Position numbers and translations under genes: made by a program
Part shown: positions 4,268 through 57,675 of the stretch, piece after piece
How positions within the stretch are numbered: position 1 is the first letter of the stretch
Layout of the letters: every line of letters begins with the position of its first letter
Assembly: GCF_900176375.1 (NCBI RefSeq)
Contig: NZ_FWYF01000001.1
Location: 1,684,449-1,748,448, forward strand
From: Reichenbachiella faecimaris
GTDB lineage: Bacteria > Bacteroidota > Bacteroidia > Cytophagales > Cyclobacteriaceae
Reading direction: 5' to 3'
Length of the DNA: 64,000 nt
The notes under the pieces: generated by a model
Seen by the model: only the letters and a program-made list of their open reading frames with translations
Told to the model about the DNA's origin: nothing
Databases searched by the model: none

Positions 4268-5077
4268 TTATAAATTTTTAGTCATTGTAGTCACTGGTTC
4301 AAACGAAGTAAAAGCCTTCTCAGGCACTTCGCTCAATACTTTTATATCTGTCAGCTGTCCTTTGCCTCGTCCTCCAGACAACATGATGTTTTCATATTTC
4401 TTATAATCCTCCCAAGGAGTAATAAAGCTTGGATTCGGCTGCTCCGAATTTTCAAAAAATGCCCACTGGGTTACTAAATTACTTTCGGTATCTACCCATA
4501 CATTGTAGATGTTATTCGGTGTGTCTCCTACATTTTCAAAAGCCAACTGAAGCACGAAAGACTCTTGGCCAGTTTCTGTGGTATCATTGCCAAGATAGTA
4601 CAGTGATACGCCAGCGTCTTTTAACTTATATGGCATCACCAACCAGTAGGAGTCATTGATCCAAATGCTTTTAGCTTTCTTCAAATAGCCTGCCAAAGAA
4701 TCAGATTCAGTTATTTCTTGTCCATCTACAGATGCCTTTCCATTCATACTATTGATATTTACCAACAGTTTTTCTTCCCTATCCAAATAATCAATCCTAA
4801 CATCACCCGTATATTTATCCCACAACAATCGCCTTTTACCAAAAAAAGTCCACGTGATATATCGTGTCTCATCCCAGGCCTTTCTTCCTCCCATAGCTGT
4901 CATTACCTTATCGGCAATAATGACAGCTTCTGGGTCAGATGCTTCATAGTTAAACCCATCTGCCGGTAAGTTCACATCATGATCTTGTTCTAATATTACC
5001 TCTTCTACTGACTCACTTTTTTTTGCACCGCAGCCAGCCAACAAAGCCATAACTAATACTATAATCAGGTTTTTCAT
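4268..5077 (-). CDS. lipoprotein, unknown function
   Basis: This 269-residue protein has a classical lipobox (ALLAGC, with Cys at residue 16), so it is probably lipid-anchored in the periplasm or outer membrane. The mature domain contains AVIIADKVMTAMGGRKAWDE and TRYITWTFFGKRRLLWDK, a pattern seen in Bacteroidota periplasmic proteins with a LolA/LppX-like open beta barrel. No catalytic site is evident. It lies 4 bases downstream of the kinase-fold gene and 2 bases upstream of the secreted DUF4412-like gene, so the three are almost certainly co-transcribed. Together with its neighbour it may bind a lipid or cell-surface ligand; that is inference. Confidence 0.72.
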   Translation of the reverse strand: MKNLIIVLVMALLAGCGAKKSESVEEVILEQDHDVNLPADGFNYEASDPEAVIIADKVMTAMGGRKAWDETRYITWTFFGKRRLLWDKYTGDVRIDYLDREEKLLVNINSMNGKASVDGQEITESDSLAGYLKKAKSIWINDSYWLVMPYKLKDAGVSLYYLGNDTTETGQESFVLQLAFENVGDTPNNIYNVWVDTESNLVTQWAFFENSEQPNPSFITPWEDYKKYENIMLSGGRGKGQLTDIKVLSEVPEKAFTSFEPVTTMTKNL

Positions 5078-5081
5078 ATAT

Positions 5082-6122
5082 TTAAAAATTATACATTTCT
5101 GTTTTTTTGAATACCATCCAAAGACTCATCTTCACTATTTCACCCATATTCCTGCATTTCATAAATTTAGGTTCGTGATAAAATTCTGATAAATCTTTTT
5201 TTAGCGTCGCCACATTTTTAGGAAAGGAAATTGTATCATCAATCATGGCACGCATGAGATCAACCACTCGATATCTAGCTACTCGCAGGCGGTTTGCAAT
5301 CAACGATCGCTCCTCTTTTTGATATTGACGTACAGTCTCTGGAGTCATGTGCTTAAGCCCCATATTGATAAGTGCATTGTTTTGCTTAAAGTATTGTGGT
5401 AAATATATGTTCTTCCTTCCTTCATAAGACTGCTGATCAAAATCAATAGCCTTGAGACGATACGAGATTTGTTCAAAATCGGGTATGATATTGACCACAA
5501 AATTGCTCGAATGCATATCACCTAATAACCTCACAAAACATCGTTCATTGAATTTCACAAATTCTTTCGCCAATCTGATTTCATTCAAATTTTTATCCTT
5601 GAGGTATTCTTTGATGAATTGATCTCCGGGAATTCCTGCAATATGTTCTTCAATCAATGTATTTTTATGTACAACATAGTTGATACGATTGGGAGATAAC
5701 AAATGCTCCAACTCTAACCCGTAGATTCTGGATGCGTCCGCATTTTTGATATAGAAGTAATCAAAATTATCATTGATTCTATTGACAATACGAACCCTAA
5801 ACGGTTTGGTATTCCCGTATTGGCAAATATCTACTCGCTCTACCATGAGATGATCCATCACGCTCACATCACCATCTGCTTTGATTTCAGAATATATCTG
5901 TTTCAAATCATGGTGAATCATGGCCATATCTGACTGAGGATAAAACACGGTTTCCCAAAGCGTATCTACTCCTTGATTGTCATAAAGTGGAATGGAATTA
6001 TCATAACGCAGCAATGACTCGTACTCAATGGGCACGGCAATCGTTCGCTTGTACTTATGCAAGTACGTTCTTAGCTTTTGGCTAATGGTAAACGGAATCT
6101 TTTTCTTACTAATGATCGCCAT
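5082..6122 (-). CDS. putative atypical kinase-fold protein
   Basis: This 346-residue cytoplasmic protein has no signal peptide. I read a kinase-like (APH/choline-kinase type) fold: a strand with Lys126 (YFYIKNAD), acidic Glu137/Glu139 in the next helix, a hinge-like LIEEHIAGIPGDQF (156-169), a catalytic-loop-like GDMHSSN (201-207; compare GDxHxxN of APH enzymes), and the metal-binding-like IDFD (226-229). These are the key positions of the superfamily in the right order. The substrate is unknown. The gene heads a run with a lipoprotein and a secreted protein (spacing 4 and 2 bases) and sits 70 bases downstream of the NtrB-like kinase gene on the same strand. It could be a small-molecule kinase or an inactive relative. 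Confidence 0.68.
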   Translation of the reverse strand: MAIISKKKIPFTISQKLRTYLHKYKRTIAVPIEYESLLRYDNSIPLYDNQGVDTLWETVFYPQSDMAMIHHDLKQIYSEIKADGDVSVMDHLMVERVDICQYGNTKPFRVRIVNRINDNFDYFYIKNADASRIYGLELEHLLSPNRINYVVHKNTLIEEHIAGIPGDQFIKEYLKDKNLNEIRLAKEFVKFNERCFVRLLGDMHSSNFVVNIIPDFEQISYRLKAIDFDQQSYEGRKNIYLPQYFKQNNALINMGLKHMTPETVRQYQKEERSLIANRLRVARYRVVDLMRAMIDDTISFPKNVATLKKDLSEFYHEPKFMKCRNMGEIVKMSLWMVFKKTEMYNF

Positions 6123-6191: not shown

Positions 6192-7571
6192 CTATCGTGG
6201 AAAAGTAAGCGTAAACTCTGTACCCTCATTGACTATAGAATGAACGGATATGTTGCCATTATGCTTTCGCATGATTTGCTTGGACAAGCTCAGTCCAATA
6301 CCCGATCCCGACTTTTTGGTAGTAAAAAATGGGATAAAAACCTTCTTCAAGGCTTCTTCATCAATACCAGTTCCATTATCCTTGATTTTGACCGTCACTC
6401 GCTCATCGTTTTCTACAGCAGCACATATAGAGATTTCTTTGGTTTTCTCTAATTCTTCGTTTTCCCCCATCGCCTGAATAGCATTTTTTAGCAGGTTGAT
6501 GAGTACCTGTTCTACCTGCTCCTTATCAACACGTATCATCAATTGATCAGGATTGATATCCAAGTTCACGTTTATGTCATTTTGCTCTAAATCAAACCTC
6601 AAAAGATTTAAAATAGGTCTTACCAAATCACAAATGAGCACATCTTCCAACTGTGGTATGGGTATCCTTGTCAAGTTTCTGAAGTCACTGACAAACTTAA
6701 TCAGACCATCACTGCGCTTGTGAATGGTATGCAATGCCATATGAAAGTCAGTTAAATCTTCTTTGGATATATTTTCAATTTTAAAGTCTTCCGCATTGAT
6801 CTGAGACTCAAGTTCTGTTTCTATTGTGGCTGCCAATGAAGAAATAGGTGTCACAGAATTCATAATCTCATGAGTCAAAACACGTATCAGATTTTGCCAG
6901 GCATCCATCTCCTTCTCTTCCAATTCGCTTTTGATATTCTGAATTGAGATCAACTTAAACTCTTCATCCCTTCGCATGAGTTCAATGGCATAGATGGCTA
7001 GTTGCACTTCTTCTCCCTTCTTCTCTATCTTCATCAGATCTCGTCCGCCAGTTTTCAATTCCATCAAACTATTTACCAGTTCTTCACTTACGCTTTTGAG
7101 TTGCTTTACATTTTTAATTAAATCAACACCAAGTAATGATTTGGCTGTGGAATTAATGATTTGAATTTCTCCACTTTTATCGAATGTGATGATTCCGATT
7201 CCGACATGTTGAACTATAGTTCGTAGGTAGTTGTGCTGAGCCTCCTTTTCAGCCCTTATTTCTCTAAATTTCTTAATGACGTTATTAAACTGTTCATACA
7301 ATCCGTCCATAGAAGTGCCTGTCTTCTTAGTGGTATAAGTATGTGTGAAATCGTCGTATTTGATCGAATTTAGAAAGCCCGCCAATTCCTTATTGGTCTT
7401 ATCCAAATACTTGATCAGCACATAGATTTCGTATGCCAAAAGGCAAGAAACCAGTACTTTAGTCAGTGTGTAAGAATCGGTATAAAAAAGATCAACCAGA
7501 AGAATGCACGTGCAGAAAATCAATAGTACACGAACAATGAGATTGACCTTAAAATTGTTGCTATAAGCCAT
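6192..7571 (-). CDS. NtrB-like PAS sensor histidine kinase
   Basis: This 459-residue protein has two N-terminal membrane helices (about residues 8-28 and 34-54), a HAMP-like linker, and a PAS domain (about 115-215, with GIGIITFDKSGEIQIINS). The HisKA phospho-acceptor box LTHEIMNSVTPISSL follows, then an HATPase_c domain with the N box LINLLKNAIQAM, G1 DNGTGID, an F box FFTTK and G2 GSGIGLSLSK. The NtrB-type H box suits pairing with a sigma-54 activator. The gene overlaps that activator's 3' end by 11 bases, so the two form a cognate system. The periplasmic loop is very short, which suggests sensing in the membrane or through the PAS domain. Confidence 0.93.
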   Translation of the reverse strand: MAYSNNFKVNLIVRVLLIFCTCILLVDLFYTDSYTLTKVLVSCLLAYEIYVLIKYLDKTNKELAGFLNSIKYDDFTHTYTTKKTGTSMDGLYEQFNNVIKKFREIRAEKEAQHNYLRTIVQHVGIGIITFDKSGEIQIINSTAKSLLGVDLIKNVKQLKSVSEELVNSLMELKTGGRDLMKIEKKGEEVQLAIYAIELMRRDEEFKLISIQNIKSELEEKEMDAWQNLIRVLTHEIMNSVTPISSLAATIETELESQINAEDFKIENISKEDLTDFHMALHTIHKRSDGLIKFVSDFRNLTRIPIPQLEDVLICDLVRPILNLLRFDLEQNDINVNLDINPDQLMIRVDKEQVEQVLINLLKNAIQAMGENEELEKTKEISICAAVENDERVTVKIKDNGTGIDEEALKKVFIPFFTTKKSGSGIGLSLSKQIMRKHNGNISVHSIVNEGTEFTLTFPR

Positions 7572-9646: not shown

Positions 9647-12547
9647 TTAAGCTTCTACTACTTCTTCAAATTCTTCTACTGGAATACAACTACAGAACAG
9701 GTGCCTATCACCATAGGCGTTGTCTACCCTACCTACTGATGGCCAGAATTTGTTGTTTCTAAGGTAATCCAATGGATATGCAGCTTCTGCTCTTGAATAA
9801 CCATGGTTCCATTCATCAGACAAAACAGCGTCTGCGGTGTGCGGAGCATTTTTCAATACATTGTCATTGGCATCCATTTTACCGTTTTCCACAGCTTCAA
9901 TCTCTTCTCTGATATGTAATAAGGCATCACAAAATCTATCCAACTCTTCCTTTGTTTCGCTTTCTGTTGGTTCAATCATTAAAGTACCTGCCACAGGGAA
10001 TGACACAGTTGGTGCATGAAACCCATAATCCATCAAGCGCTTAGCTATATCCTCCACTTCAATTCCGAATGATTTAAACGCTCTACAATCCACAATCATC
10101 TCGTGAGCACATCTACCATTTATCCCAGTATAGAGGATAGGAAATTTCGTTTCTAACCTTGCCTTAATATAATTGGCGTTAAGAATAGCCATTTTAGTGG
10201 CATTCAACAGCCCATCAGGGCCCATCATGGCGACATAGCCATAAGAAATTGGCAACACCCCAGCACTGCCAAACGGCGCTGCTGAGATAGAACTAATAGC
10301 TTTTCCATTATCAATATCTACCAAAGGGCTTCCTGGAAGATAAGGAGCCAAATGTTCGGCTACACCAATTGGGCCAATGCCAGGCCCTCCACCACCGTGA
10401 GGTATAGCAAATGTCTTGTGCAAGTTCAAATGGCAAACATCTGCACCAATATGACCAGGACTTGTCAACCCAACCTGCGCATTCATGTTAGCTCCATCCA
10501 TGTATACCTGTCCACCATTCTGGTGAATAATTTCACAGATTTCAATCACACTTTCTTCGAATACCCCATGGGTGGAAGGATAAGTGATCATTAATGAAGA
10601 AAGTGAATCCTTATACTGTTCTGCTTTTGTCCTCAGGTCAGTCACATCAATGTTTCCTCTCTCGTCACATTTTACCAATACTACTTGGTTACCAGCCATG
10701 ACGGCACTTGCAGGGTTAGTCCCATGCGCAGAAGTTGGGATCAAGGTGATGTTTCTATGTCCTTCGCCTTTATCAGCTTGGTATGCTTTGATTACTAGTA
10801 GCCCGGCATACTCTCCTTGTGCCCCTGAGTTAGGCTGTAAAGAAGTGGTATAGAAGCCTGTAATTTCTGACAACCATTCTGTTAAGTTTGAAATCAACTC
10901 TCTGTAACCTTCTGTTTGATTCACTGGAGCAAAGGGATGCATTTGCGCAAATTCTGGCCAGGTGATAGGAATCATTTCGGAAGTAGCATTCAGTTTCATA
11001 GTACATGATCCTAGCGAGATCATGGAGTGAGCCAAGGACAAATCTTTGTTTTCTAGTCTCTTCAAATATCTAAGCATTTCATGCTCTGATTGATACTTCT
11101 GATAGACTGGGTGCTCCATGAACCCAGAAGTACGATCAAAATCTCCATTGAACTTGATCTCTACATGATTCGCTGCTTCTATCACTGTTGGTTCAGCAAT
11201 ATCACTCGAACCAAATTTTCCAAATACCGAAACCACTTCTACCAGTTCTGCAACTGTATGTGTCTCATCAAAGGCTACACCAATTGAACCTTTGTTATAA
11301 TAATTGAAATTAATACCTCTTGATTCCGCCTCAGTTCTAATTTTTTCTTTTAGAGAATCATCAGCTTTTATTTTCAAGGTATCAAAATAAGTTTGGTTCT
11401 CCTGCTCAAAACCCATTTCACTTAAATACTTGCTTGCTAATTGAGCTAAGCCATGTATCCTTGATGCGATTCTCTTCAGTCCATTTGGGCCGTGATAGAC
11501 CGCGTAAGCTCCAGCGATTACACCTAATAAAACCTGGGCTGTACAAATGTTTGAAGTCGCCTTCTCTCTTCGTATATGTTGTTCTCTGGTTTGCAAAGCC
11601 ATTCTATAGGCTTTGTTGCCATGGCTATCCTGAGATACGCCTATGATTCTTCCTGGAATCTGTCTTTTATATTCTTCTCTTGTAGCGAAGAACCCAGCAT
11701 GAGGCCCTCCAAAGCCCATTGGTACCCCAAATCTTTGAGTAGTTCCCACGACTACATCAGCTCCCATTTCACCTGGAGGTGTAAGCAGCACCAAACTCAT
11801 CAAATCAGTAGCTGTGGTAATGAAAACTTGATTTTCTTGAGCCATTGAAAATAGCTCTCTATAATCCTCAACGCTCCCCTCTGCATTCGGATACTGCACG
11901 ATCAATCCAAAGTATTCTGGAGCTGAGATATCAATATTTTCATACTTATCAATAACCAATTCAATACCTATTGGCAAGGCTCTGGTTTTGAGGACGTCTA
12001 ATGTTTGAGGGAAAACTCTTTCATCTACAAAATATTTGTTAGCCGTTTTCTTATCCTTTTTTCTCAAGGCAAACTGCATGGACATGGCTTCCGCAGCAGC
12101 TGTAGCCTCATCTAGTAAAGAAGCATTTGCTATTTCCATTCCAGTTAGGTCTGAAACCATTGTTTGGAAGTTCACCAAAGCCTCTAATCTACCTTGAGCA
12201 ATTTCAGCCTGATAAGGCGTATAGGCAGTATACCATCCTGGATTTTCAAGAATGTTTCTTTGGATGACAGCAGGGGTTACACAGTTGTAATAGCCCAATC
12301 CTATAAATGATTTGAACACCTTGTTTTTAGATGCCATTTCTTTGACAGCACGCACGTAGCTAAATTCATCTAGTGCTTCTGGAATGTTGAGTGCTGCTCT
12401 GTTTCGAATATTTTCTGGAACAGTTTGGTCAATTAATTCATCCACAGAATTAACACCCACAGTGTCCAACATCTGTGAAATATCATCATTGGATGGCCCA
12501 TTGTGTCTATGCTGAAAATGGGTACGTTCGTTAAGATTTGCTATCAT
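9647..12547 (-). CDS. gcvP: glycine dehydrogenase (decarboxylating), P-protein
   Basis: The PLP-dependent P-protein of the glycine cleavage system decarboxylates glycine and passes the aminomethyl group to the lipoyl arm of GcvH. At 966 residues it is the fused (alpha plus beta) single-chain form. The N-terminal half begins with FQHRHNGPSNDDISQML and contains FIGLGYYN and YTPYQAEIAQGRLE. The PLP-binding lysine is in LHKTFAIPHGGGGPG of the C-terminal half, and the end carries RVDNAYGDRHLFCSCIP. No gcvT or gcvH is next to it. A consensus Bacteroidota promoter sits 30 bases upstream of the ATG. I see no glycine riboswitch in the leader. Confidence 0.98.
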   Translation of the reverse strand: MIANLNERTHFQHRHNGPSNDDISQMLDTVGVNSVDELIDQTVPENIRNRAALNIPEALDEFSYVRAVKEMASKNKVFKSFIGLGYYNCVTPAVIQRNILENPGWYTAYTPYQAEIAQGRLEALVNFQTMVSDLTGMEIANASLLDEATAAAEAMSMQFALRKKDKKTANKYFVDERVFPQTLDVLKTRALPIGIELVIDKYENIDISAPEYFGLIVQYPNAEGSVEDYRELFSMAQENQVFITTATDLMSLVLLTPPGEMGADVVVGTTQRFGVPMGFGGPHAGFFATREEYKRQIPGRIIGVSQDSHGNKAYRMALQTREQHIRREKATSNICTAQVLLGVIAGAYAVYHGPNGLKRIASRIHGLAQLASKYLSEMGFEQENQTYFDTLKIKADDSLKEKIRTEAESRGINFNYYNKGSIGVAFDETHTVAELVEVVSVFGKFGSSDIAEPTVIEAANHVEIKFNGDFDRTSGFMEHPVYQKYQSEHEMLRYLKRLENKDLSLAHSMISLGSCTMKLNATSEMIPITWPEFAQMHPFAPVNQTEGYRELISNLTEWLSEITGFYTTSLQPNSGAQGEYAGLLVIKAYQADKGEGHRNITLIPTSAHGTNPASAVMAGNQVVLVKCDERGNIDVTDLRTKAEQYKDSLSSLMITYPSTHGVFEESVIEICEIIHQNGGQVYMDGANMNAQVGLTSPGHIGADVCHLNLHKTFAIPHGGGGPGIGPIGVAEHLAPYLPGSPLVDIDNGKAISSISAAPFGSAGVLPISYGYVAMMGPDGLLNATKMAILNANYIKARLETKFPILYTGINGRCAHEMIVDCRAFKSFGIEVEDIAKRLMDYGFHAPTVSFPVAGTLMIEPTESETKEELDRFCDALLHIREEIEAVENGKMDANDNVLKNAPHTADAVLSDEWNHGYSRAEAAYPLDYLRNNKFWPSVGRVDNAYGDRHLFCSCIPVEEFEEVVEA

Positions 12548-12576
12548 TTTGGATTCGGAGTTTACAGCTATTCAAA

Positions 12577-12609
12577 CAAATATATTTTCCCTTTGAAAAT
12601 TTGCGCAAA
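12577..12609 (-). promoter_or_regulatory. gcvP promoter, Bacteroidota consensus
   Basis: On the minus strand the sequence reads TTTG (12609-12606), 21 bases, then TATATTTG (12584-12577), an exact match to the Bacteroidota housekeeping promoter TTTG-N19-21-TAnnTTTG. Transcription should start about 6-7 bases after the -7 box, giving a leader of roughly 23 bases before the gcvP ATG. Confidence 0.8.
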
Positions 12610-12721
12610 TCTAATCTGAATTAGTCAAAAAAAGACGAACTAATTCTCTTAAAATGATACTTTATTGGCTTGTGATTTTGTGAGAAATTGAAGCTGAAAT
12701 TGAAGGGGAGAGGAATCGATA

Positions 12722-12760
12722 CTTGTGGGATTAGGTACCGATGTACCTATTCCCCACAAG
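12722..12760. repeat. large imperfect hairpin
   Basis: The arms CTTGTGGGATTAGGTAC (12722-12738) and GTACCTATTCCCCACAAG (12743-12760) pair over almost their full length around a CGAT loop, with one extra base and one internal mismatch. There is no U tract on either side, so it is not a standard terminator. It lies about 150 bases downstream of the helicase stop on the minus strand, upstream of the gcvP promoter. Confidence 0.75.
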
Positions 12761-12912
12761 ATCTTTTCAACCAGCTATGGAAAGAAAGACTTTTTAATCC
12801 ATCTTTCTGTAGCAATAATAAACTCTTTCTTTATCCTGTTAAATTAAATTCTATGAATCAAAATATTTTTTCGACGAATAGATCAATTTCTTAGACGAAT
12901 GAAAATGGATTG

Positions 12913-14193
12913 CTACCTTCTCCTTTTGGATTTTTTTGACTTTATGTCCTTTTTGTCGTGAAACGCCCCTTTATAAGTTGGGTCTAATTTCTTCTTGCGA
13001 TAGTCAATTTCTCTCAACTGCTCTTGTTGCTCTATAAATGGTGTCTTTTCTATTTCTACCTCAGAAGGCACAGACTCCATAACAATTTTTTTATCAATCA
13101 ATTTTTCAATTTGCTTAATATGATGCTCTTCTGCATGATTAGCAAATGTGATAGCAATTCCCGTATGCTCTGCCCTACCCGTTCGGCCAATTCTATGAAC
13201 ATAGTCTTCATAAATCAAAGGCACATCAAAATTGATCACATGAGATACCATACTGACATCCAAACCACGAGCAGCTACATCAGTAGCCACTAGAATCTTT
13301 ATTTCCCCATTTTTGAATGAGTCAATAGAGTTCAGACGGGTATTTTGTGCCTTGTTGCCATGAATGACCCGAACAGACTTAGTAATTTTTCTATCTATAA
13401 ACTTGAAGATATTATCTGCATTGGCCTTAGTCTTCACAAAGATGATTACTCTATTCAATTCTTCCTTGGCAAGTAAGTAATCTAACATATTGATCTTACT
13501 CTTGAAGTTTGGAATCAGATAAAGAAACTGGGTAATGGTATCCACAGTTGAAGACTGTGGCGTGACTTCCACCTTTTCGGGGAATTCTAAAAACTCAGCA
13601 GAAAGGTTTTCCACTATCTCAGACATTGTCGCAGAAAAGAGTAAATTTTGTCTTTTTACTGGAATGATTTCCAGAATCTGTCTAATCTGAGGCATGAATC
13701 CCATGTCCATCATTTTATCCGCCTCATCTATGGCAAGTGTCTTGATCTGCTTCGTCCCAAACACTCCTTTTCTATAGAGATCCATAAAACGACCTGGTGT
13801 AGCCACCAAAATATCTATTCCTTCAGCCAGTTTCTCTTCTTGCGCCTTCATCCCCGTCCCTCCATAAACTGCAGTAAACCGCAAGTCAAGATAGGTGGCA
13901 TACTTTTGAATATTCTCATTGATTTGAATGGCCAACTCCCTGGTGGGCGCCAATATCAAAGCTCTGGGATCTTGGCCTTGGGCATATTTCAGCTTCATTA
14001 GGAGTGGCAATACAAAAGCAGCCGTTTTTCCAGTACCCGTTTGTGCAATACCCATCACATCGTGTCCAGACAGCACCAACGGGATGGCTTTCTTTTGAAT
14101 AGGTGTAGGCGAAGTATATCCAGCCTCTACTATGGCATTGAGCACTTGCTTGTTGAGCTTGAAATCTGAGAAATTTTTGATGTTATTCGCCAT
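12913..14193 (-). CDS. DEAD-box RNA helicase, RhlE-like
   Basis: This ATP-dependent RNA helicase (426 residues from the ATG at 14193; the longer frame would use TTG) contains the full motif set. These are a Q motif (SPTPIQKKAIP), motif I AQTGTGKTAAF, Ia PTRELAIQ, II DEADKMMDMGF, III SAT, and the C-terminal helicase motifs VATDVAARGLD and YVHRIGRTGRAEH. A basic tail (KKSKRRR) follows. The short, lysine-rich C-terminus without an RRM-like DbpA domain fits the RhlE group, which acts in ribosome assembly and cold adaptation. It is divergent from dihydroorotase. Confidence 0.95.
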   Translation of the reverse strand: MANNIKNFSDFKLNKQVLNAIVEAGYTSPTPIQKKAIPLVLSGHDVMGIAQTGTGKTAAFVLPLLMKLKYAQGQDPRALILAPTRELAIQINENIQKYATYLDLRFTAVYGGTGMKAQEEKLAEGIDILVATPGRFMDLYRKGVFGTKQIKTLAIDEADKMMDMGFMPQIRQILEIIPVKRQNLLFSATMSEIVENLSAEFLEFPEKVEVTPQSSTVDTITQFLYLIPNFKSKINMLDYLLAKEELNRVIIFVKTKANADNIFKFIDRKITKSVRVIHGNKAQNTRLNSIDSFKNGEIKILVATDVAARGLDVSMVSHVINFDVPLIYEDYVHRIGRTGRAEHTGIAITFANHAEEHHIKQIEKLIDKKIVMESVPSEVEIEKTPFIEQQEQLREIDYRKKKLDPTYKGAFHDKKDIKSKKSKRRR

Positions 14194-14306
14194 GGATTGC
14201 AATTAGAAGCCTAAGCCAATTAATTTTGTGCTGCAATTTATCAAGTTTCCTTCGATTCTTGGTGCCAATTGCGCAAATCAGACTTTCATCTAATAAAATC
14301 AGAAGA

Positions 14307-15647
14307 ATGGCCAAATACACACTTATCAAAAATGCAACAATCGTAAACGAGGGCACTTTGCTTGCTCACGATGTATTGATCAAAGATAGGCGAATTGAAA
14401 AAATAGGTTTTGGCCTTTCCCATGAGAGTGCTGAGGTAATTGACGCGGATGGTAAATTTCTGCTTCCAGGTGTTATAGACGACCAGGTTCACTTCAGAGA
14501 ACCTGGCTTAACCCACAAGGCTGAAATTTATACAGAAAGCCGTGCGGCAGTGGCTGGTGGTATTACCTCCTTTATGGAAATGCCAAATACCGTACCCAAT
14601 ACATTGACTCAAGAATTACTGCAAGACAAATATGATATTGCTTCAAAATCATCCTTAGCCAACTATTCGTTTTTCATGGGAGCTTCTAATGATAATATAG
14701 AAGAAGTCATGAAAACCAGTAGACAAAACGTCTGCGGCATCAAAGTTTTCATGGGATCCTCTACGGGTAATATGTTGGTTGATAATGAAAAAACTTTGAC
14801 CGAATTGTTTTCCCGAGCTGAATTGATTGTAGCAGCACATTGTGAAGATGAAACCACTATTCGTAGAAATACCGAGCTATTCAAGGAAAAATATGATGGA
14901 AACATTCCATTTACTGCTCACCCATTAATTAGAAGTGAAGAAGCGTGCTACCTTTCTTCTTCCAAGGCGGTGGCATTGGCCAAAGCCAACAACACCAAGT
15001 TTCATGTGCTCCATATCTCTTCAGGAAAAGAAACAGGGCTATTTGACAACTCTGTGCCTCTAAAAGATAAATTGATCACTTCAGAAGCCTGTATCCACCA
15101 TATGTGGTTCTCAGATGAAGATTATTTAACAAAAGGTGGATTGATCAAATGGAATCCAGCAGTTAAAACAGCATTCGACCGTGACACCATATTTCAAGCA
15201 ATGTTAGACGATAAAATAGATGTAATTGCTACTGACCATGCACCCCACACCATAGAAGAGAAAGATAATGACTATCTCAACTGTCCGTCTGGTGGGCCTC
15301 TCGTTCAGCATGCTCTACCTGCCATGCTCGAACATCATTTAAACGGCAAAATTTCTATGGAGAGAATAGTAGAAAAAATGTGTCACAATCCTGCCATCCT
15401 ATTTGAAGTAAAAGAGAGAGGATACATACGAGAAGGCTATTATGCAGATTTGGTAATAGTGGACACAGCAGACCAATGGTTGGTTCAAAAAGAAAATGTA
15501 TTATCAAAATGTGGCTGGAGTCCTTTTGAAGGACAGTCTTTCAGAAGCCAAATCACTCATACTTTTGTGTCTGGACATTTGGCCTACGCCAATGGCAAAT
15601 TCAATGAAGGAGTGAATGGCGAACGTTTAATGTTCGACAGAAAATAA
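14307..15647 (+). CDS. pyrC: dihydroorotase
   Basis: The zinc amidohydrolase of pyrimidine synthesis cyclises carbamoyl-aspartate to dihydroorotate. I chose the ATG at 14307 (MAKYTLIKN), giving 446 residues; the in-frame extension to 14226 is not protein-like. Class I motifs are present: metal ligands in DDQVHFREPG, VAAHCEDE and VLHISSG, and the C-terminal metal and substrate site VIATDHAPHT. The closing FEGQSFRSQITHTFVSG strand is typical of the amidohydrolase beta sandwich. A hydantoinase or allantoinase is less likely given the DHFREPG-type region and the length. Confidence 0.92.
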   Translation: MAKYTLIKNATIVNEGTLLAHDVLIKDRRIEKIGFGLSHESAEVIDADGKFLLPGVIDDQVHFREPGLTHKAEIYTESRAAVAGGITSFMEMPNTVPNTLTQELLQDKYDIASKSSLANYSFFMGASNDNIEEVMKTSRQNVCGIKVFMGSSTGNMLVDNEKTLTELFSRAELIVAAHCEDETTIRRNTELFKEKYDGNIPFTAHPLIRSEEACYLSSSKAVALAKANNTKFHVLHISSGKETGLFDNSVPLKDKLITSEACIHHMWFSDEDYLTKGGLIKWNPAVKTAFDRDTIFQAMLDDKIDVIATDHAPHTIEEKDNDYLNCPSGGPLVQHALPAMLEHHLNGKISMERIVEKMCHNPAILFEVKERGYIREGYYADLVIVDTADQWLVQKENVLSKCGWSPFEGQSFRSQITHTFVSGHLAYANGKFNEGVNGERLMFDRK

Positions 15648-15660
15648 ATGCTGAATTAAT

Positions 15661-15693
15661 TTTGGATTTTAAGAACACAAATTTCTAAATTTG
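15661..15693 (+). promoter_or_regulatory. promoter of tRNA-His
   Basis: TTTG (15661-15664), 21 bases, then TAAATTTG (15686-15693) is a perfect Bacteroidota promoter with the same spacing as the gcvP promoter. The predicted start is near 15700, about 36 bases before the tRNA. Confidence 0.8.
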
Positions 15694-15735
15694 CACTCCT
15701 TTTTAAGGGGTCAACCAAAAGGGTTGATGAAACAT

Positions 15736-15810
15736 GGTGATTGTAGTTCAGTTGGTTAGAACGCCTGGTTGTGGTCCAGGAGGTCGCCGGTTCGAGTCCG
15801 GTCTTTCACC
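15736..15810 (+). tRNA. tRNA-His (anticodon GTG)
   Basis: The cloverleaf is complete. It has the D arm GTTC/GAAC, anticodon stem CCTGG/CCAGG around loop TTGTGGT (anticodon GTG), variable loop AGGTC, and T arm GCCGG-TTCGAGT-CCGGT. The extra G at 15736 (position -1) facing C at 15810 (position 73) is the tRNA-His identity element. By my alignment the acceptor stem carries two adjacent T-T oppositions (15741/15805 and 15742/15804). CCA is not fully encoded. A promoter precedes it and a terminator follows at once. Confidence 0.95.
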
Positions 15811-15815
15811 CATTC

Positions 15816-15844
15816 AAAGCCTTGCAGCAATGCAGGGCTTTTTT
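15816..15844 (+). terminator. terminator of tRNA-His
   Basis: AAAGCCTTGCA (15816-15826), loop GCAA, then TGCAGGGCTTT (15831-15841) forms an 11-bp stem with one G-T pair, followed by further T residues. It starts six bases after the tRNA 3' end. Confidence 0.88.
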
Positions 15845-15870
15845 GGTTTATGAGGCTCTGAATAACTCAG

Positions 15871-15999
15871 AAGGTCGCCGAACTAGGCATCCCCGTTCCA
15901 GCGGAATTTTTCACTCAGACCATGCTTCTCTGAAATGCAAAGTTTTTTATAGGTGTTCTTGTGTGTTATAATCCCAAAGTCGCTGAATCAGGTATTCCT
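15871..15999. repeat. two diverged copies of a short repeat downstream of tRNA-His
   Basis: The 24-base cores at 15871-15894 and 15976-15999 match at 17 of 24 positions, and all seven differences are transitions. Each copy is followed after about 40 bases by a similar CTGAAATGC / CTCAAATGC end (near 15930 and 16042). No credible protein spans the region. This looks like a decayed small repeat unit, possibly a remnant inserted next to the tRNA. Confidence 0.4.
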
Positions 16000-16054
16000 A
16001 TTGACTCCGCCCTTCACTGGAATCAAGCCACATTGTTCCTCAAATGCTGTTTTC

Positions 16055-17020
16055 TCATTTCTGATATTTATTGCGATAAGCAATAGGTGTAAGTCCTGTA
16101 ATTTTTTTAAACACGGTTCTAAATGCTTTGGTATCGGTATATCCTACCTCAAACATCACTTCCGTAATGTTTTTTCGAGTGGCTTCAAAGGCTCGTTTGG
16201 CCGCTTCTATTTTCACACGTTGGATATACTCCACTACAGTATTGTTTGTAGTACTTTTGAATCGCCGCTCGAAACTCCTTCGACTGACCGCAACAAAATC
16301 AGCCAAAACATCCACAGTGATCTTTTCTTTATACCTCTCCTCTATATACAGTTGAGCTTTTTTTATCTCCTCGTCATTGTGGTCTTTCTGGCCTTCAAAC
16401 ATCATGAAAGATGATTGACTCTCACGATCAATGTCAATGGCGAAATACTTGGAAGCCATAATCGCTGTGTCTCTATCCGTGTACTTTTCCAACAGCAGGA
16501 GTAGAAGATTCCAATATGAGTTGGCCCCTCCACTAGAGTAGATACGGCCCTCTTCGGTAATGATGCTACCATCTGTGACTTCCACATCTGGAAAGGTTTC
16601 GCGAAACTCACCATAGTAGGCCCAATGTGTGGAGCATTTTTTGCCCTTCAGTAAACCCGTACTGGCCAGTAGAAAGGCACCCACACAAAGTGAAGCTACC
16701 TCAGCACCTTTGTTGTAGTGACTGACCAACCAAGGGATGGTGGATTCATTCTTGCCCACTGCGGATTTCATGTCTCCAAACAACGCGGGAACAATGATCA
16801 AATCCGTATGTTCTACTTCATTCAACAGTTTATCCGTAGTGACAGTAAAAAAGCCATCATGCACTTTTACTTGTCTCTGATGCCCCACCAGCTGTACGTC
16901 AAAAAGAGGCTCACTCCCACTCGCTTGTAGAAACTGGTTGGCTGCCGAAAACATATATCTGGGATTGGACACAGCCTCTGCTACTGCAGATTCAGGCACC
17001 AAAATGGAAATATTTTTCAT
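16055..17020 (-). CDS. GlxA-family AraC-type transcriptional regulator
   Basis: This 321-residue regulator has an N-terminal DJ-1/PfpI-like domain (about residues 1-190, with the nucleophile-elbow-like VASLCVGAFLLASTGLL and GGANSYWNLLLLLLEKY). A C-terminal AraC HTH pair follows (about 215-321; VAVSRRSFERRFKSTT, ITEVMFEVGYTDTKAFRTVFKKITGLTPIAYRNKY). GlxA-type regulators act as activators responding to small metabolites. It is divergent from the DUF4287/VOC cluster and is the obvious candidate to control it. The intergenic region carries CCCTAAAGGG-type symmetry near 17057. Confidence 0.9.
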   Translation of the reverse strand: MKNISILVPESAVAEAVSNPRYMFSAANQFLQASGSEPLFDVQLVGHQRQVKVHDGFFTVTTDKLLNEVEHTDLIIVPALFGDMKSAVGKNESTIPWLVSHYNKGAEVASLCVGAFLLASTGLLKGKKCSTHWAYYGEFRETFPDVEVTDGSIITEEGRIYSSGGANSYWNLLLLLLEKYTDRDTAIMASKYFAIDIDRESQSSFMMFEGQKDHNDEEIKKAQLYIEERYKEKITVDVLADFVAVSRRSFERRFKSTTNNTVVEYIQRVKIEAAKRAFEATRKNITEVMFEVGYTDTKAFRTVFKKITGLTPIAYRNKYQK

Positions 17021-52429: not shown

Positions 52430-52918
52430 ATGACCATTATTCCCATGCTACCGAAACACTGGCCTGAGGTCGAACGCATCTATCAAGATGGTATAGACAC
52501 TAATCAGGCCACTTTCGAAACCCAAACACCCAGCTGGAAAGCATGGGATGCAGGTCATTTACTCACCCCTCGATTAGTTGCCAAAGCAAATGACGATTTT
52601 ATTTTAGGCTGGGCAGCTTTATCTCCCATCTCAAAACGCGAGGTCTATAGAGGAGTAGCCGAAGTGAGCATTTATATTGATGTGAAAAATCTTGGCCAGG
52701 GAATTGGTAAAAAATTACTCACATCATTAATCTCTCAATCTGAAGCTGCTGGTATTTGGATGCTTCAGGCAGTCACATTTCCTGAAAATGAAGCTAGTGT
52801 TCGTTTGCACGAAAAATTGGGCTTTAGACTGGTGGGCCAAAGAGAAAGAATTGCTCAGCAACATGGCGTTTGGCGTGACACGGTCATACTGGAAAGGCGA
52901 TCAGACAAAATCAATTAA
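52430..52918 (+). CDS. GNAT N-acetyltransferase, phosphinothricin-acetyltransferase-like
   Basis: This 162-residue protein starts at the ATG at 52430 (MTIIPMLPKHWPEVERIYQDGI); an ATG at 52385 would overlap DUF6428 by 20 bases. The GNAT acetyl-CoA site is visible in EVSIYIDVKNLGQGIGKKLLTSLI, and the Pat-like pattern in IDTNQATFETQTPSW and ENEASVRLHEKLGFRLVGQRE. Relatives acetylate phosphinothricin, methionine sulfoximine or arsenic derivatives (ArsN). The link with DUF6428 suggests the last. Its stop overlaps rarA's stop by 4 bases. Confidence 0.9.
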   Translation: MTIIPMLPKHWPEVERIYQDGIDTNQATFETQTPSWKAWDAGHLLTPRLVAKANDDFILGWAALSPISKREVYRGVAEVSIYIDVKNLGQGIGKKLLTSLISQSEAAGIWMLQAVTFPENEASVRLHEKLGFRLVGQRERIAQQHGVWRDTVILERRSDKIN

Positions 52919-54171
52919 TACCCATACTTATCCTTCCACTGTGCTTTGAGCTTCTTGCGCATTTCTTCTTCACGTGGGTTTCTACCTGGTTCGAATAATG
53001 TCCGTCCTTTCACTTCCTCTGGCATAAACTCAAAGTCCACAAAATTGCCAACATGGTCGTGGGCATATTTGTAGCCTTCCCCATAGCCTATCTCTTTCAT
53101 GAGTTTGGTAGGTGCATTGCGAATGCCTAGTGGAATGGACAAATCACCCGTTTCGCGCACCAGATGCTGGGCTTTATTGATCGCCATGTAGGCCGCATTG
53201 CTTTTGGCCGAACAGGCCAGATACGTCACACACTGGCTGAGAATAATTCTTGACTCTGGATAGCCTATCACATTCACGGCCTGAAAAGCATTATTGGCAA
53301 TCACCAAAGCAGTAGGATTCGCATTGCCAATATCTTCTGAAGCCAGTATCAGCAGTCTTCTGGCAATAAATTTCACATCCTCTCCTCCTTCTATCATTCG
53401 TGCGAGATAGTAGACAGCTGCATTCGGATCGCTCCCTCTGATGGACTTGATAAAAGCTGAAATAATGTCGTAGTGCATCTCTCCACTTTTGTCGTAGATG
53501 GCTGCTTTCTTTTGTGCAATTTCCGTGACTACTTCATTCGTAATTACTGCCTGCTTATCCAAGGAATCGACCACCAGCTCTAGTAGATTGAGGAGTTTTC
53601 GTCCATCTCCTCCAGAGAGTCTCATGAGCGCTTGATCCTCTTTGATTTCCACTTTCTTGTCTTTGAATACTTTTGGGTGATTCAGTGCTTTATTGATCAA
53701 CTCAGTTAAATTTTCTTTGGCAAGTGCGTTGAGTGTATAGACCTGACATCTGGAAAGCAAAGCGGCATTGACTTCAAAGCTGGGATTTTCAGTAGTTGCT
53801 CCAATCAAAGATACTTGTCCCTTTTCTACAGCACCCAACAGGGCATCTTGCTGTCCTTTATTAAAACGATGAATCTCATCAATAAACAGAATGGCTTTTG
53901 ATCCCAATCTAGATTTTTGAATGACTTCTCTGATATCTTTCACTCCAGCACTAATCGCGCTTAGTGTGAAAAACGGCATTTTAGCAGAATTGGCAATGAT
54001 ATTAGCGATAGTTGTTTTGCCCACACCTGGTGGTCCCCACAAGATCATAGAGGGTACAGCACCTGAGTTGATCGCGCGCTTCAGAATATTTTTCAAGTGA
54101 TCTTGACCTACCAGCTCGTCCAATGTCTGAGGTCTCAATCTCTCCGCTAAGGGCATAGGGTTGTCTAGCAT
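52915..54171 (-). CDS. rarA: replication-associated recombination protein A
   Basis: This 418-residue AAA+ ATPase of the clamp-loader group acts at stalled replication forks. [20 protein letters not shown] opens the protein. Walker A is [13 protein letters not shown], Walker [15 protein letters not shown], sensor 1 [12 protein letters not shown], and the C-terminal MgsA domain is complete ([42 protein letters not shown]). Full length, nothing odd. Confidence 0.97.
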
Positions 54172-54229
54172 AAGATACGCTACGATAAAAATTATTAAAC
54201 GAATGGAAAATTAATGAAAATCAGAAGGA

Positions 54230-54973
54230 TTATTGTCCATCTTCTTCCGCCTCAGGAGTTTCCTCTAGTGTCTCCTGAGGTTCCTCAGGAATAGCTTCTT
54301 CTATAACGGTTTCTTCCGCCCCTGATTCTTGCTCTACAGTCTCAGGCTCAGCCTGCTTGTCATCTTTGTTCTTTTTGAATAAACCTCCAAGCCCCTTCTT
54401 TTTTACCTGTGTGGTATCCGATTCCTGACTTTGCTCTTCTTCTAATTTCTCAGCTGACGGGGGTGGACGGTTGTCTATGAACAACTCACCGTAATATTTA
54501 TTGTAATAGACCTGCTCTTGATTGTGTGCAGCCGTTTCCTCATATCGGTATTTGTATCTTGGGCCTACTGGTTCTGGTTCTGCCTCTACTTTTGCTAGCA
54601 GTGGAGCTACTGACAAAGAATCCATCCCTAATGTATCTGTATCCACAAAATCTTCCGCTAAAAATTCTCCCTGATCTATAATCAACTCTGTAGTATCTTC
54701 TGGAACTGGTGCCAACACATTTTTCTTAGGTGCTGTCATCAGCTCATAATTCTTTCGAAACAAACTTGTTTTCTTGTTTACACCATACTTGGTTCGTCTG
54801 GATGCCAGAGCCAATTTAGGTGTGCTGTCATTCGCAAAATAGGAGTATTTAGCAAAGCGCAGGGAATCGTCCAGAATATAAGTACTCTGAAAGGCAGGGC
54901 ATACCACGTTGTCTTTACAAGCGTAAAAAACAAGGCACAACACAAACAATATAGGAAAACTAGTTCTCCTCAC
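54230..54973 (-). CDS. lipoprotein with acidic C-terminal tail
   Basis: This 247-residue protein has a lipobox near LVFYAC (Cys at about residue 19) and ACKDNVVCPAFQSTYILDD right after it, a pattern seen in conserved Cytophagales lipoproteins. The last 60 residues are very rich in Glu (EPETVEQESGAEETVIEE and so on) and low complexity. Function is unknown; the tail may contact cationic surfaces. Single gene downstream of the esterase gene. Confidence 0.78.
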   Translation of the reverse strand: MRRTSFPILFVLCLVFYACKDNVVCPAFQSTYILDDSLRFAKYSYFANDSTPKLALASRRTKYGVNKKTSLFRKNYELMTAPKKNVLAPVPEDTTELIIDQGEFLAEDFVDTDTLGMDSLSVAPLLAKVEAEPEPVGPRYKYRYEETAAHNQEQVYYNKYYGELFIDNRPPPSAEKLEEEQSQESDTTQVKKKGLGGLFKKNKDDKQAEPETVEQESGAEETVIEEAIPEEPQETLEETPEAEEDGQ

Positions 54974-55126
54974 AAATTTTATTCAATTAGGGATTAGGTG
55001 GATACAATCACTAACCCTCAAAAATGGATAATATTTCCTGATTTATACAATTAATCTCTTCAATTCTTAAAAGACAATCTGGCCTTCAAATCAAATATCA
55101 ACATATAATCTTCGAATAGTTCAAGT

Positions 55127-55732
55127 TTACTCCTTGAGCATGGATTTCACTATGGGATAAGCTGCATCTACCCATTCTTTATACATTTTTCCTGATGGGT
55201 GTAGACCATCTTCAGCTACCAGAGCGGGCTCACTGGCGGCACGTCTACTCCCAGGTGTGATGTTTACAAAGGCCACTTCATATTGGTCGCAGATAGCCTC
55301 GGCTATCCTGTTGTACTCATCCACCTCTCTAGCAATTTTAGCAGGTTCTTTAGAAGCTGCAAATGGTGTAACCCCATAATCAGGAATAGACAAGACAAAG
55401 GTTCGCTTGGACTTGCCTTTTGCAAAAGCGATGGCTTGCTGAAGTAAAGACTCAAATTCTTTTTTGTATTGATCTATTGGATAACCGCGATATTGGTTGT
55501 TCACTCCTATCAGGAGAGAAACCAAGTCATAATCTTTGGATGGTTTTTCTTTATCAATGGCAGCTTGTAGCTCGTCAGTAGTCCAGCCTGTAGTAGCTAT
55601 GATTTTGGGCATTTCTACTTTGATACCGTCACCTACTAATCGGCCTTGCAGGATATGTGGCCATCTTTCGTCTGGCGCTACGGCTTCTCCGATCGTATAG
55701 GAGTCGCCAAGTGCTAAGTATTTGTATGTCAT
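55127..55732 (-). CDS. SGNH/GDSL hydrolase
   Basis: This 201-residue hydrolase has the block I motif ALGDSYTIGEAV (catalytic Ser), block III GVNNQYRG (Asn) and block V DGLHPSGKMY (Asp, His). There is no signal peptide, so it is a cytoplasmic esterase or thioesterase-type enzyme. A 10-bp hairpin sits directly upstream of its ATG, between it and the nuclease-like gene. Confidence 0.93.
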   Translation of the reverse strand: MTYKYLALGDSYTIGEAVAPDERWPHILQGRLVGDGIKVEMPKIIATTGWTTDELQAAIDKEKPSKDYDLVSLLIGVNNQYRGYPIDQYKKEFESLLQQAIAFAKGKSKRTFVLSIPDYGVTPFAASKEPAKIAREVDEYNRIAEAICDQYEVAFVNITPGSRRAASEPALVAEDGLHPSGKMYKEWVDAAYPIVKSMLKE

Positions 55733-55757
55733 TTTTAGGGAATTGTTTTCCCTAAAA
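55733..55757. repeat. hairpin in the leader of the SGNH gene
   Basis: TTTTAGGGAA (55733-55742) and TTCCCTAAAA (55748-55757) form a perfect 10-bp stem with a five-base loop, immediately in front of the SGNH ATG and 41 bases after the nuclease-like stop. It could be a terminator for the latter or block ribosome entry for the former. Confidence 0.7.
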
Positions 55758-55797
55758 TTAGGCTTTTAGGAATAACGAACCAACTCAAGAACAACAG

Positions 55798-57129
55798 CTA
55801 ATCAATAGACTCAAGTTTGGGAGCATTTCTATTCCAATTGATCATATGCTGAACAATTCCTGCATAATATTCAATTATCATTCTTTCAATTCGCTCAACA
55901 AATTTTTTAACACTAGCGAAGTTTGCCCCGAAGCTGCTAATTAAAACAATATGGAATGCTTGAATCTCTTTACCTATACTTAAATCGGCAAGGGTATCTA
56001 ATTCCGAAAGTTTTATTTTAATATGAGATTTACCAAACTTAATATCTGCCTCAACCCATATGTCACTTTCAATTTTATTGAAAATCGATTCGCTTTGCTT
56101 TTTACAGTTCTGTAATTGTTTAGAAATCCATGTGATCCTAGCTTTTGTACCTTTATCCAATGGAGGAATTACTTTAACTGACATTGAGACTGACCTGCGC
56201 TCAAAGTCTGAAAAAACCTTAATATCAGATACTGAATTTTTTACACTTAAAATTCCGCTTATATAATTGTGTTTAACAAGCTGAGCAATATCCTTCTTTA
56301 GACTATCTTTATTTTTAGAAGTTGACTTCACAAGAACCCCTAAACTACGGCTCAAGTACAATGCCATATCCTTCTCCTCCTCATACCAGCTTAATACAGC
56401 ATCTTCAATGTATATATCTGAATTTTTTAATGGTTTTTGGGCACTTACATTCTCAGCCAATTCTTTCCACCCTGGCTTCATACTTGTATATCCGCTTACT
56501 CCAGAAACAGGATTCTCCATATAATGCAGAACCTCCTTCATAACCTCTTCCTGATCTTCATTGGTAATATTTTCTTCATTGTCAAACAACAAAAGTTGTC
56601 CAATTGTCATAAGGTAAGTCCAAGAAAAGTGATACATCGAAATGCTTTTGGGTAGTCTGACAGCAACAGGAGACAAGCTAGAATCTGCGACGAACTCATT
56701 CGAAACCGTAACAAGTTTATCAACTCTGAGCTTTTTTGCTAGTTCAATATATTTTTCAATCTGATTCTTATCTATCCCATTATTCTTATTTTTCATTTCT
56801 AAGAACACTGCACCCTTTATCACATCTTTGACAACAGTAATTATCATTCCATCTATCCTAGAATTTTTGTCAATTTCAGGAATACTGACTTCAGTAAAAA
56901 AATATGTCTTACCACTTCGACTGAATTTAATTTCCTTAAAAAGAGTATCTCTAAATTCTTTAACAATTCGTACAGACGACAAAAAAATAGAAGTGAGAGC
57001 CATTTCGTCTCCCGTTTTGTGGGTTGGGATTAGGCGAGCAGGATGAACTTGAATTTGGCCAGAATTAACAAACAAGTCAAATTCACTCTTTTTGAGTCCA
57101 ACCAGTTTAGTAAATTTCCTTTTGATCAT
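55798..57129 (-). CDS. putative PD-(D/E)XK nuclease-like protein
   Basis: This 443-residue protein starts at the ATG at 57129; a TTG at 57216 is in frame but adds an unlikely 29 residues. The N-terminal 130 residues carry a PD-(D/E)XK-like set: Glu42 in KTGDEMALTSIFLSS, Asp93 in SRIDGMII, Glu111-x-Lys113 in VFLEMKNKNN, and Gln123 in NQIEKYIELA, in the order expected for restriction-type nucleases. An alpha-beta region (LVTVSNEF, YHFSWTYLMTIGQLLLF) and a Lys-rich C-terminal half with no recognised domain follow. It is AT-rich compared with its neighbours, with hairpins on both sides and no methylase partner. A stand-alone defence or DNA-repair nuclease is the best guess. Confidence 0.68.
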   Translation of the reverse strand: MIKRKFTKLVGLKKSEFDLFVNSGQIQVHPARLIPTHKTGDEMALTSIFLSSVRIVKEFRDTLFKEIKFSRSGKTYFFTEVSIPEIDKNSRIDGMIITVVKDVIKGAVFLEMKNKNNGIDKNQIEKYIELAKKLRVDKLVTVSNEFVADSSLSPVAVRLPKSISMYHFSWTYLMTIGQLLLFDNEENITNEDQEEVMKEVLHYMENPVSGVSGYTSMKPGWKELAENVSAQKPLKNSDIYIEDAVLSWYEEEKDMALYLSRSLGVLVKSTSKNKDSLKKDIAQLVKHNYISGILSVKNSVSDIKVFSDFERRSVSMSVKVIPPLDKGTKARITWISKQLQNCKKQSESIFNKIESDIWVEADIKFGKSHIKIKLSELDTLADLSIGKEIQAFHIVLISSFGANFASVKKFVERIERMIIEYYAGIVQHMINWNRNAPKLESID

Positions 57130-57240
57130 ATTCTTATACTTTTCAGTTTGAAAAAATTCAAGAATTGGCCAAAGTGTAATTATGAAATATTTTGCGACAG
57201 GAACATTTCGAGCCAATTTAAAATCTCAAAATGCTTACAC

Positions 57241-57293
57241 AATTAAACCAAAAAAGGGATCAAATACAATTTGCTCCCTTTTTTGGTTTAATT
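57241..57293. terminator. very long perfect hairpin, probable bidirectional terminator
   Basis: AATTAAACCAAAAAAGGGA (57241-57259) and TCCCTTTTTTGGTTTAATT (57275-57293) are perfectly complementary over 19 bases. After one mismatch five more pairs (CAAAT/ATTTG) close a three-base loop. It lies 14 bases after the receiver gene stop on the minus strand and 112 bases upstream of the nuclease-like ATG. Confidence 0.85.
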
Positions 57294-57306
57294 ATTTTAA
57301 GGTTAA

Positions 57307-57675
57307 TCAAGCCACCCTACTTACAGCTGCTTCTATAGCTGCTTCTACTTCTGCGGCATTTAGCGGTTTGTGAAAGACTTTGCTGATCAAGCTGTCTTCG
57401 ACTGCCTGCTGGATCTTGGGCTCTCCATCCATAGAGGTGAGGATAAAGCATTCTATATTGTTGTATTTGGCTCTGGCTTCTTGTATAAAATCAACACCAT
57501 CCATACCTGGCATGCGCATGTCGCTTATGATTACGATAAAGTCGTCTTTGATTTGAGTTAGCTTCTTAAGTGCTTCCTGACCAGAATCGGCCATCATGAT
57601 GGAATACTTGGGGTCAAAAATCTTTTCGAATATGATGCGAGGAATAGACTCGTCATCCACATATAGTACTGTCAT
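57307..57675 (-). CDS. stand-alone response regulator receiver
   Basis: This 122-residue receiver has VLYVDDESIP, phospho-Asp in VIISDMRMPGMDGVDFI, switch Thr in FILTSMD and Lys in FHKPLNAAEVE. It is closer to HD-GYP/RpfG-type receivers than to the two LLDINMP receivers elsewhere in the window. No output domain and no kinase adjacent. It lies upstream of the long hairpin on the minus strand. Confidence 0.92.
   Translation of the reverse strand: MTVLYVDDESIPRIIFEKIFDPKYSIMMADSGQEALKKLTQIKDDFIVIISDMRMPGMDGVDFIQEARAKYNNIECFILTSMDGEPKIQQAVEDSLISKVFHKPLNAAEVEAAIEAAVSRVA

Follow-up and report, generated by a model that had tools for sequence, protein, structure and literature searches.

What does the AT-rich gene at 55798–57129 (reverse strand) of our Reichenbachiella faecimaris window do for its host? 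By the window we mean the whole stretch of DNA that was analysed, 64,000 nucleotides of contig NZ_FWYF01000001.1 (positions 1,684,449 to 1,748,448). The gene encodes a protein of 443 amino acids, which a sequence-only reading had taken for a PD-(D/E)XK nuclease carried by a self-contained insertion. We find that it is a member of a rare and unnamed family of two-domain proteins, very probably nucleases, one branch of which carries a fused TerD domain. Both halves are kept in two phyla, and in the four libraries searched (Pfam, NCBIfam, PADLOC and PHROGs) the TerD part of the actinobacterial relatives is the sole portion to have a name. The reading that we prefer, at a probability of roughly 45%, is that of a stand-alone nuclease gated by a C-terminal partner-binding lobe and serving as an optional effector against invading or damaged DNA. 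The gene, its invariant catalytic-type residues, the predicted nuclease core, purifying selection, its scattered distribution, the TerD fusion and the neighbourhood of cyclic oligonucleotide-based antiphage signalling system (CBASS) genes in some Rhodococcus plasmids are established.

The gene and its predicted nuclease domain

The 443-residue product starts at the ATG at 57129, upstream of which a TTG would give 472 residues. A scan of contig collections returned 17 loci with relatives, 12 of them full length, and the position of the window ATG is occupied by ATG in 11 of these and by TTG in one (L016). Since relatives start at this same position, the 472-residue reading appears unlikely. The AT-richness that had been claimed was confirmed against the 65 non-overlapping ATG-initiated open reading frames (ORFs) of at least 100 amino acids in the window: the gene has a G+C content (GC) of 34.0% (ORF mean 40.7%, standard deviation 2.8) and a third-position GC of 30.2% (mean 40.6%, standard deviation 4.1), and is second lowest of the 65 for both. 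ORF, start codon, homologues and an AlphaFold model together describe a protein with a predicted N-terminal PD-(D/E)XK-type nuclease domain and a C-terminal fold resembling DUF1054, YbjN and type III secretion chaperones.

The putative nuclease domain covers approximately residues 11–180 (56590–57099, reverse strand), as judged from the secondary structure of the model, structure matches and invariant residues. The model has a predicted local distance difference test (pLDDT) score of 84.8, with ten-residue means of 82–95 over residues 41–140, 59 for residues 31–40 and 78 for residues 141–150. It places Glu42 on a helix (42–55), followed by strands 74–82, 92–100 (with Asp93) and 103–112 (with Glu111), Lys113, a helix at 121–134 bearing Gln123 and a strand at 138–142. 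The sequence-only reading had listed Glu42, Asp93, Glu111-x-Lys113 and Gln123 as being in nuclease order. All five are found at the positions given and do not vary in any of the 13 rows of alignment A6, in which the query is joined by 12 homologues drawn from two phyla (21–67% identity to the query). Only 26 of the 443 columns are invariant there, and the presence of all five residues among them looks far from chance. The acidic residues and the E-x-K thus follow in order on the core, with the glutamine on the next helix. Structure prediction and comparison might have returned a fold lacking a nuclease core; they returned the expected core, in agreement with residues and conservation, and the protein is very likely a nuclease.

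Matches within residues 11–209 comprised Can2, Card1, Cdn1, EcoT38I, AspBHI and McrC, the nuclease domains of Can2 and Card1 being closest. Searched by sequence, the PDB gave one chance-level line (E 0.41), and by profile none up to E 5; BFVD gave no match at E ≤0.001, its first rows (E 0.003–0.03) including proteins named as restriction endonucleases. In the CRISPR ancillary nucleases Can2, Card1 and Cdn1, which are among the nearest structural matches to our predicted nuclease domain, a CARF sensor precedes the nuclease domain. The window protein, in contrast, has only some 10–30 residues before its nuclease, and carries its extra domain, which has a different fold, at the C-terminal end. 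We therefore rejected a CARF nuclease, as the nuclease region starts near residue 11, leaving no room upstream, and Pfam found no CARF domain.

The PD-(D/E)XK fold is also used for RNA cleavage, and an RNA-processing enzyme or toxin-type RNase could be built upon it. In one homologue (G769) the start is preceded, at a distance of about 47 nt, by a gene that encodes five S1 RNA-binding stretches, as might suit such an enzyme. However, the nearest fold matches are mostly enzymes generally known to cut DNA, and no antitoxin-like partner was seen by eye to recur in the loci read; we regard an RNase as improbable.

The C-terminal lobe and the case for repair

The C-terminal portion (55801–56487, reverse strand), as delimited from the model and structure comparison, is closest to DUF1054, YbjN and type III secretion chaperones, with moderate Z scores. 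The sequence-only reading called this half undescribed, and indeed no family in the four libraries names it. The window protein as a whole has no family match in them either, a lone Pfam line at E 0.18 falling under the cut-off. In PADLOC no family was found for it at E ≤1, nor for two TerD-fused forms at E ≤0.01, so that it is without a match to the defence protein families described there. Among the literature matches listed, no paper on this protein was evident by title. The DUF1054 proteins (B. subtilis Q45498, 2a8e; 3mqz) differ in having chains of 205–210 residues without a nuclease domain, at 8–12% identity. From YbjN, AmyR, DR1245 and the class I type III secretion chaperones the lobe differs in being fused to a nuclease, and the profile search of the PDB (E ≤5) tied it to none of them by sequence.

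DR1245 of Deinococcus, which is YbjN- and type III secretion chaperone-like, binds the single-stranded DNA-binding protein DdrB, and the order of its fold matches that of our modelled C-terminal half (PMC3575483). Perhaps, then, the protein is a DNA-repair or end-processing nuclease of the stress response, whose lobe would dock on a single-stranded DNA-binding or repair protein, as DR1245 does on DdrB, the TerD fusion reflecting Ter-type stress signalling. Most of the Bacteroidota neighbourhoods read as housekeeping, and a RarA-type ATPase gene 1.6 kb away in the window would be in keeping with this. On the other hand, the gene is rare and scattered, unlike core repair genes; no repair gene was seen by eye to recur as a neighbour; and the DR1245 mutant is as radioresistant as the wild type (PMC3575483). 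We consider repair somewhat unlikely; were the protein only a repair nuclease, it would still be an unannotated one.

A variable slot and a scattered gene

The congener with the most similar flanking genes (G005; 90% and 69% identity) aligns to the window at 52631–55760 (80%) and again from 57314. The stretch between, 55761–57313, has no blastn match and forms a variable slot from the GDSL hydrolase gene to the response-regulator gene. In G005 the slot (L037 3304–4691) holds other DNA, with ORFs of 109 and 339 amino acids on the opposite strand, the larger without a PADLOC match. The slot is therefore variable in content, and we see no clean insertion with recognisable ends; nor is the nuclease gene bracketed by a direct repeat in the window. 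The gene is thus absent from the same place in its closest congener, and conservation at one locus in all relatives, with normal composition, is not what we see.

A further genome (G002) keeps the GDSL side and gave no response-regulator match passing E 1e-20. In another genus of the family (G021), two contigs each end in a piece of the gene (residues 1–109 in one, about 57 onward in the other, the latter with one stop near the contig edge), and these could be one copy or two. There the gene starts 41 nt behind an SDR gene, beside which are genes that we take to be MlaE- and MlaF-type; in the window, about 3.2 kb separate the nuclease gene from the matching SDR gene. Neighbours differ among the remaining Bacteroidota copies to the extent that these were read; the exception is L008 and L013, where the homologue is next to the same large downstream gene, presumably purL-type. 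This suggests a variable slot and a gene often gained or lost.

The gene had also been thought to be framed by two hairpins. Both exist, but they do not mark off an insertion. The right one, at 57241–57293 between the response-regulator stop codon and the nuclease gene, is an inverted repeat with 25-nt arms and one mismatch (96% complementary) containing a 19-bp perfect stem. It begins 13 nt past the stop codon of the response-regulator gene (57307–57675, reverse strand) and, by position alone, is probably its terminator. The left one (55733–55757, 10 bp, loop of 5) abuts the ATG at which the GDSL hydrolase gene starts. It lies inside the block aligned to G005, which lacks the nuclease gene, and hence belongs to the conserved upstream region of the GDSL gene. 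Of its pairs, the outer six alone are still perfect in G005. A terminator scan of 50–64 kb listed neither hairpin, the right one being missed because the scan requires a T-run behind the stem; it returned 11 sites (10.3 expected), and the promoter scan 31 (34.9 expected). Counting perfect stems whose length is at least 10 bp and whose loop is 3–12, the window has nine, a count that includes the left hairpin and not the right one, whose perfect part has a longer loop. Ten order-1 Markov simulations gave 0–3, so that strong hairpins are a general trait of the window. From the G005 alignment and this abundance we rejected a hairpin-framed insertion; the two structures exist but are nothing unusual for this DNA, and they do not mark the ends of a mobile unit.

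Counting its own genome throughout, the gene occurs in 2 of 59 relatives (none of the seven other congeners) and in four genomes each of two overlapping sets of 395, one drawn from the class (E 0.001) and one from the phylum (E 0.01); of the four in the phylum set, one is a short fragment and another a borderline match (E 0.009). The 17 loci of the contig scan all bear Bacteroidota-type titles and show 47–68% identity. Besides the 12 open at full length, there are four interrupted ones, L013, L017 and L019 through changes of frame and L020 through a stop codon and a premature end; the remaining one (L012, by its length the same contig as C228 of G021) starts at a contig edge. The G082 copy is likewise interrupted. 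Some of these breaks may be errors; most of the loci come from metagenome assemblies. The intact copies are under purifying selection: nonsynonymous divergence (dN) was 0.07–0.13 against a synonymous divergence (dS) of 1.6–2.9, near saturation, in four intact Bacteroidota pairs, and 0.056 against 0.52 in one Rhodococcus pair, while dS was saturated in three further pairs. The gene is lower in GC than its flanks in 15 of 19 other loci (Bacteroidota 15 of 17, Actinobacteria 0 of 2), a comparison made with L005, L009, L012 and L020 left out and with one genome represented twice (L004 and L063). In the gene tree the window row takes no resolved place among the Bacteroidota and stands apart from L012, the copy from the same family, a topology which fits horizontal exchange without proving it. 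In short, the gene is rare, patchily distributed and found at unrelated sites.

A single gene at unrelated sites, with GC under its flanks in most Bacteroidota loci, missing from the same slot in G005 and interrupted in 4 of 17 loci and in G082, could also be a selfish mobile element of the free-standing homing-endonuclease kind. We think this very unlikely, for the window locus has no direct repeat around the gene, the downstream gene shared by L008 and L013 fits vertical descent, and the TerD fusion and the conservation of both domains fit a cellular effector.

TerD-fused relatives and the question of defence

A tblastn search of plasmids gave 10 records, all from Rhodococcus or Streptomyces and annotated as TerD family protein, which cover 88–96% of the window protein at 22–26% identity; a Rhodococcus query (tblastn) added one more, without annotation. 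These homologues bear an additional N-terminal TerD domain, located by Pfam at residues 6–171 and 2–172 of the two actinobacterial proteins searched, with nothing else at E 0.01. The window protein is solo. No TerD domain was found in it or in its own genome, and the six Bacteroidota genomes with a solo copy that were searched, one of them only 70% complete, gave none; the control was positive in 2 of 14 genomes. One paper places TerD among the nucleotide-binding domains of conflict systems (PMC7159879).

CBASS genes are near the fusion in three of five Rhodococcus plasmids, two of which (ZPP and WAY2) are near-identical. In R. qingshengii pLP337, PADLOC identified the CBASS cyclase, E1-E2, JAB and NucC within about 6.5 kb upstream; in ZPP and WAY2, near-identical in this region, tblastn located the same four genes from about 1 kb downstream, and did not find them in the sp. 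008 and JS3073 stretches. A RES-family gene is near the fusion in sp. 008, ZPP and WAY2. The six Streptomyces contexts, read from annotation only, have no annotated CBASS; S. glaucescens has a DUF3883 gene and a helicase-domain gene 6–8 kb from the fusion. A 2012 paper on Ter by Anantharaman, Iyer and Aravind may already mention a TerD–nuclease fusion.

Directly upstream of the fusion, sp. 008 and R. qingshengii have a two-gene pair in common (L049 4697–7035, L021 4692–7030), one member of which weakly matches BnzB; pair and fusion are possibly a three-gene unit.

Taken together, these features can be arranged in a single mechanism. A metal-dependent PD-(D/E)XK-type enzyme would cleave nucleic acid, probably DNA. 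Its trigger would be the YbjN/type III chaperone-like lobe, acting as a switch or adaptor upon binding a partner protein made or exposed in stress or infection, and in Actinobacteria the N-terminal TerD domain would be a second sensor. The cell would then retain the nuclease as a horizontally exchanged option. Should the lobe prove to be a protein-binding switch of this sort, the family would be an example of a nuclease controlled by a chaperone-like domain, and its fusion with TerD could be used to test what TerD domains sense. A narrower version, which we hold to be unlikely, makes this a single-gene immune effector family, in which the lobe restrains the nuclease and releases it on binding a phage or single-stranded DNA-associated protein, the TerD sensor being added in Actinobacteria alongside CBASS. 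Such a family would connect Ter stress proteins, which are poorly understood, with nucleases that act against phages.

The scatter, purifying selection beside broken copies, the TerD fusion and CBASS near two independent Rhodococcus forms speak for defence, as do the AbiD, PDC-S05, DNA methylase, YhcG and GmrSD_N genes that accompany single Bacteroidota copies (see below). Several points weigh against it. The genes surrounding ours in the window are, to the extent that they were scanned, of a housekeeping kind, and most of the 21 Bacteroidota loci that were read give the same impression. A tblastn search with the window protein and with one Streptomyces form returned nothing from 50,697 phage records, and two IMG/VR pattern scans, which reach mainly close relatives, gave no relative either; a phage origin was set aside on these grounds. 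The defence genes near copies were noted without a measured background rate. The case for an anti-phage role is circumstantial, and defence is plausible; we put a role against invaders at somewhat under one half and repair at about one quarter.

Around the gene itself, Pfam found no methylase among 12 neighbour ORFs (10 plus the two direct neighbours, 48.5–61.0 kb; the ORFs that begin at 47898 or 51311 and everything beyond 61.1 kb lay outside the scan), and type II restriction-modification was rejected on this ground. The only DNA-related neighbour scanned is the RarA/MgsA-type AAA+ ATPase gene (52915–54171), which also matches the RuvB_N model; the statement that neither methylase nor helicase is nearby holds to that extent.

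PADLOC was run on 150 ORFs neighbouring the copies, giving the 25 most frequent of 108 families without loci, and selected proteins were then scanned singly. YhcG was found at L009, GmrSD_N at L061 and DNA methylases near the interrupted homologue of L017. In the last locus (11894–16828), two ORFs that matched nothing in Pfam or PADLOC at the thresholds applied are convergent with two DNA methylase genes, and this may be an unlisted restriction-modification locus. On contig C6 of G434 (L063), a genome with a second intact copy on C28, an AbiD/Abi_2 gene (6679–7545, reverse strand) is 13 nt downstream of the nuclease homologue, with a PDC-S05 gene further on (5073–6065, reverse strand). Elsewhere in the window, the lowest GC of the 65 ORFs (32.0%) belongs to one of 351 amino acids at 2141–3196 (forward strand), which has apparent membrane segments at its beginning and is another candidate for foreign origin.
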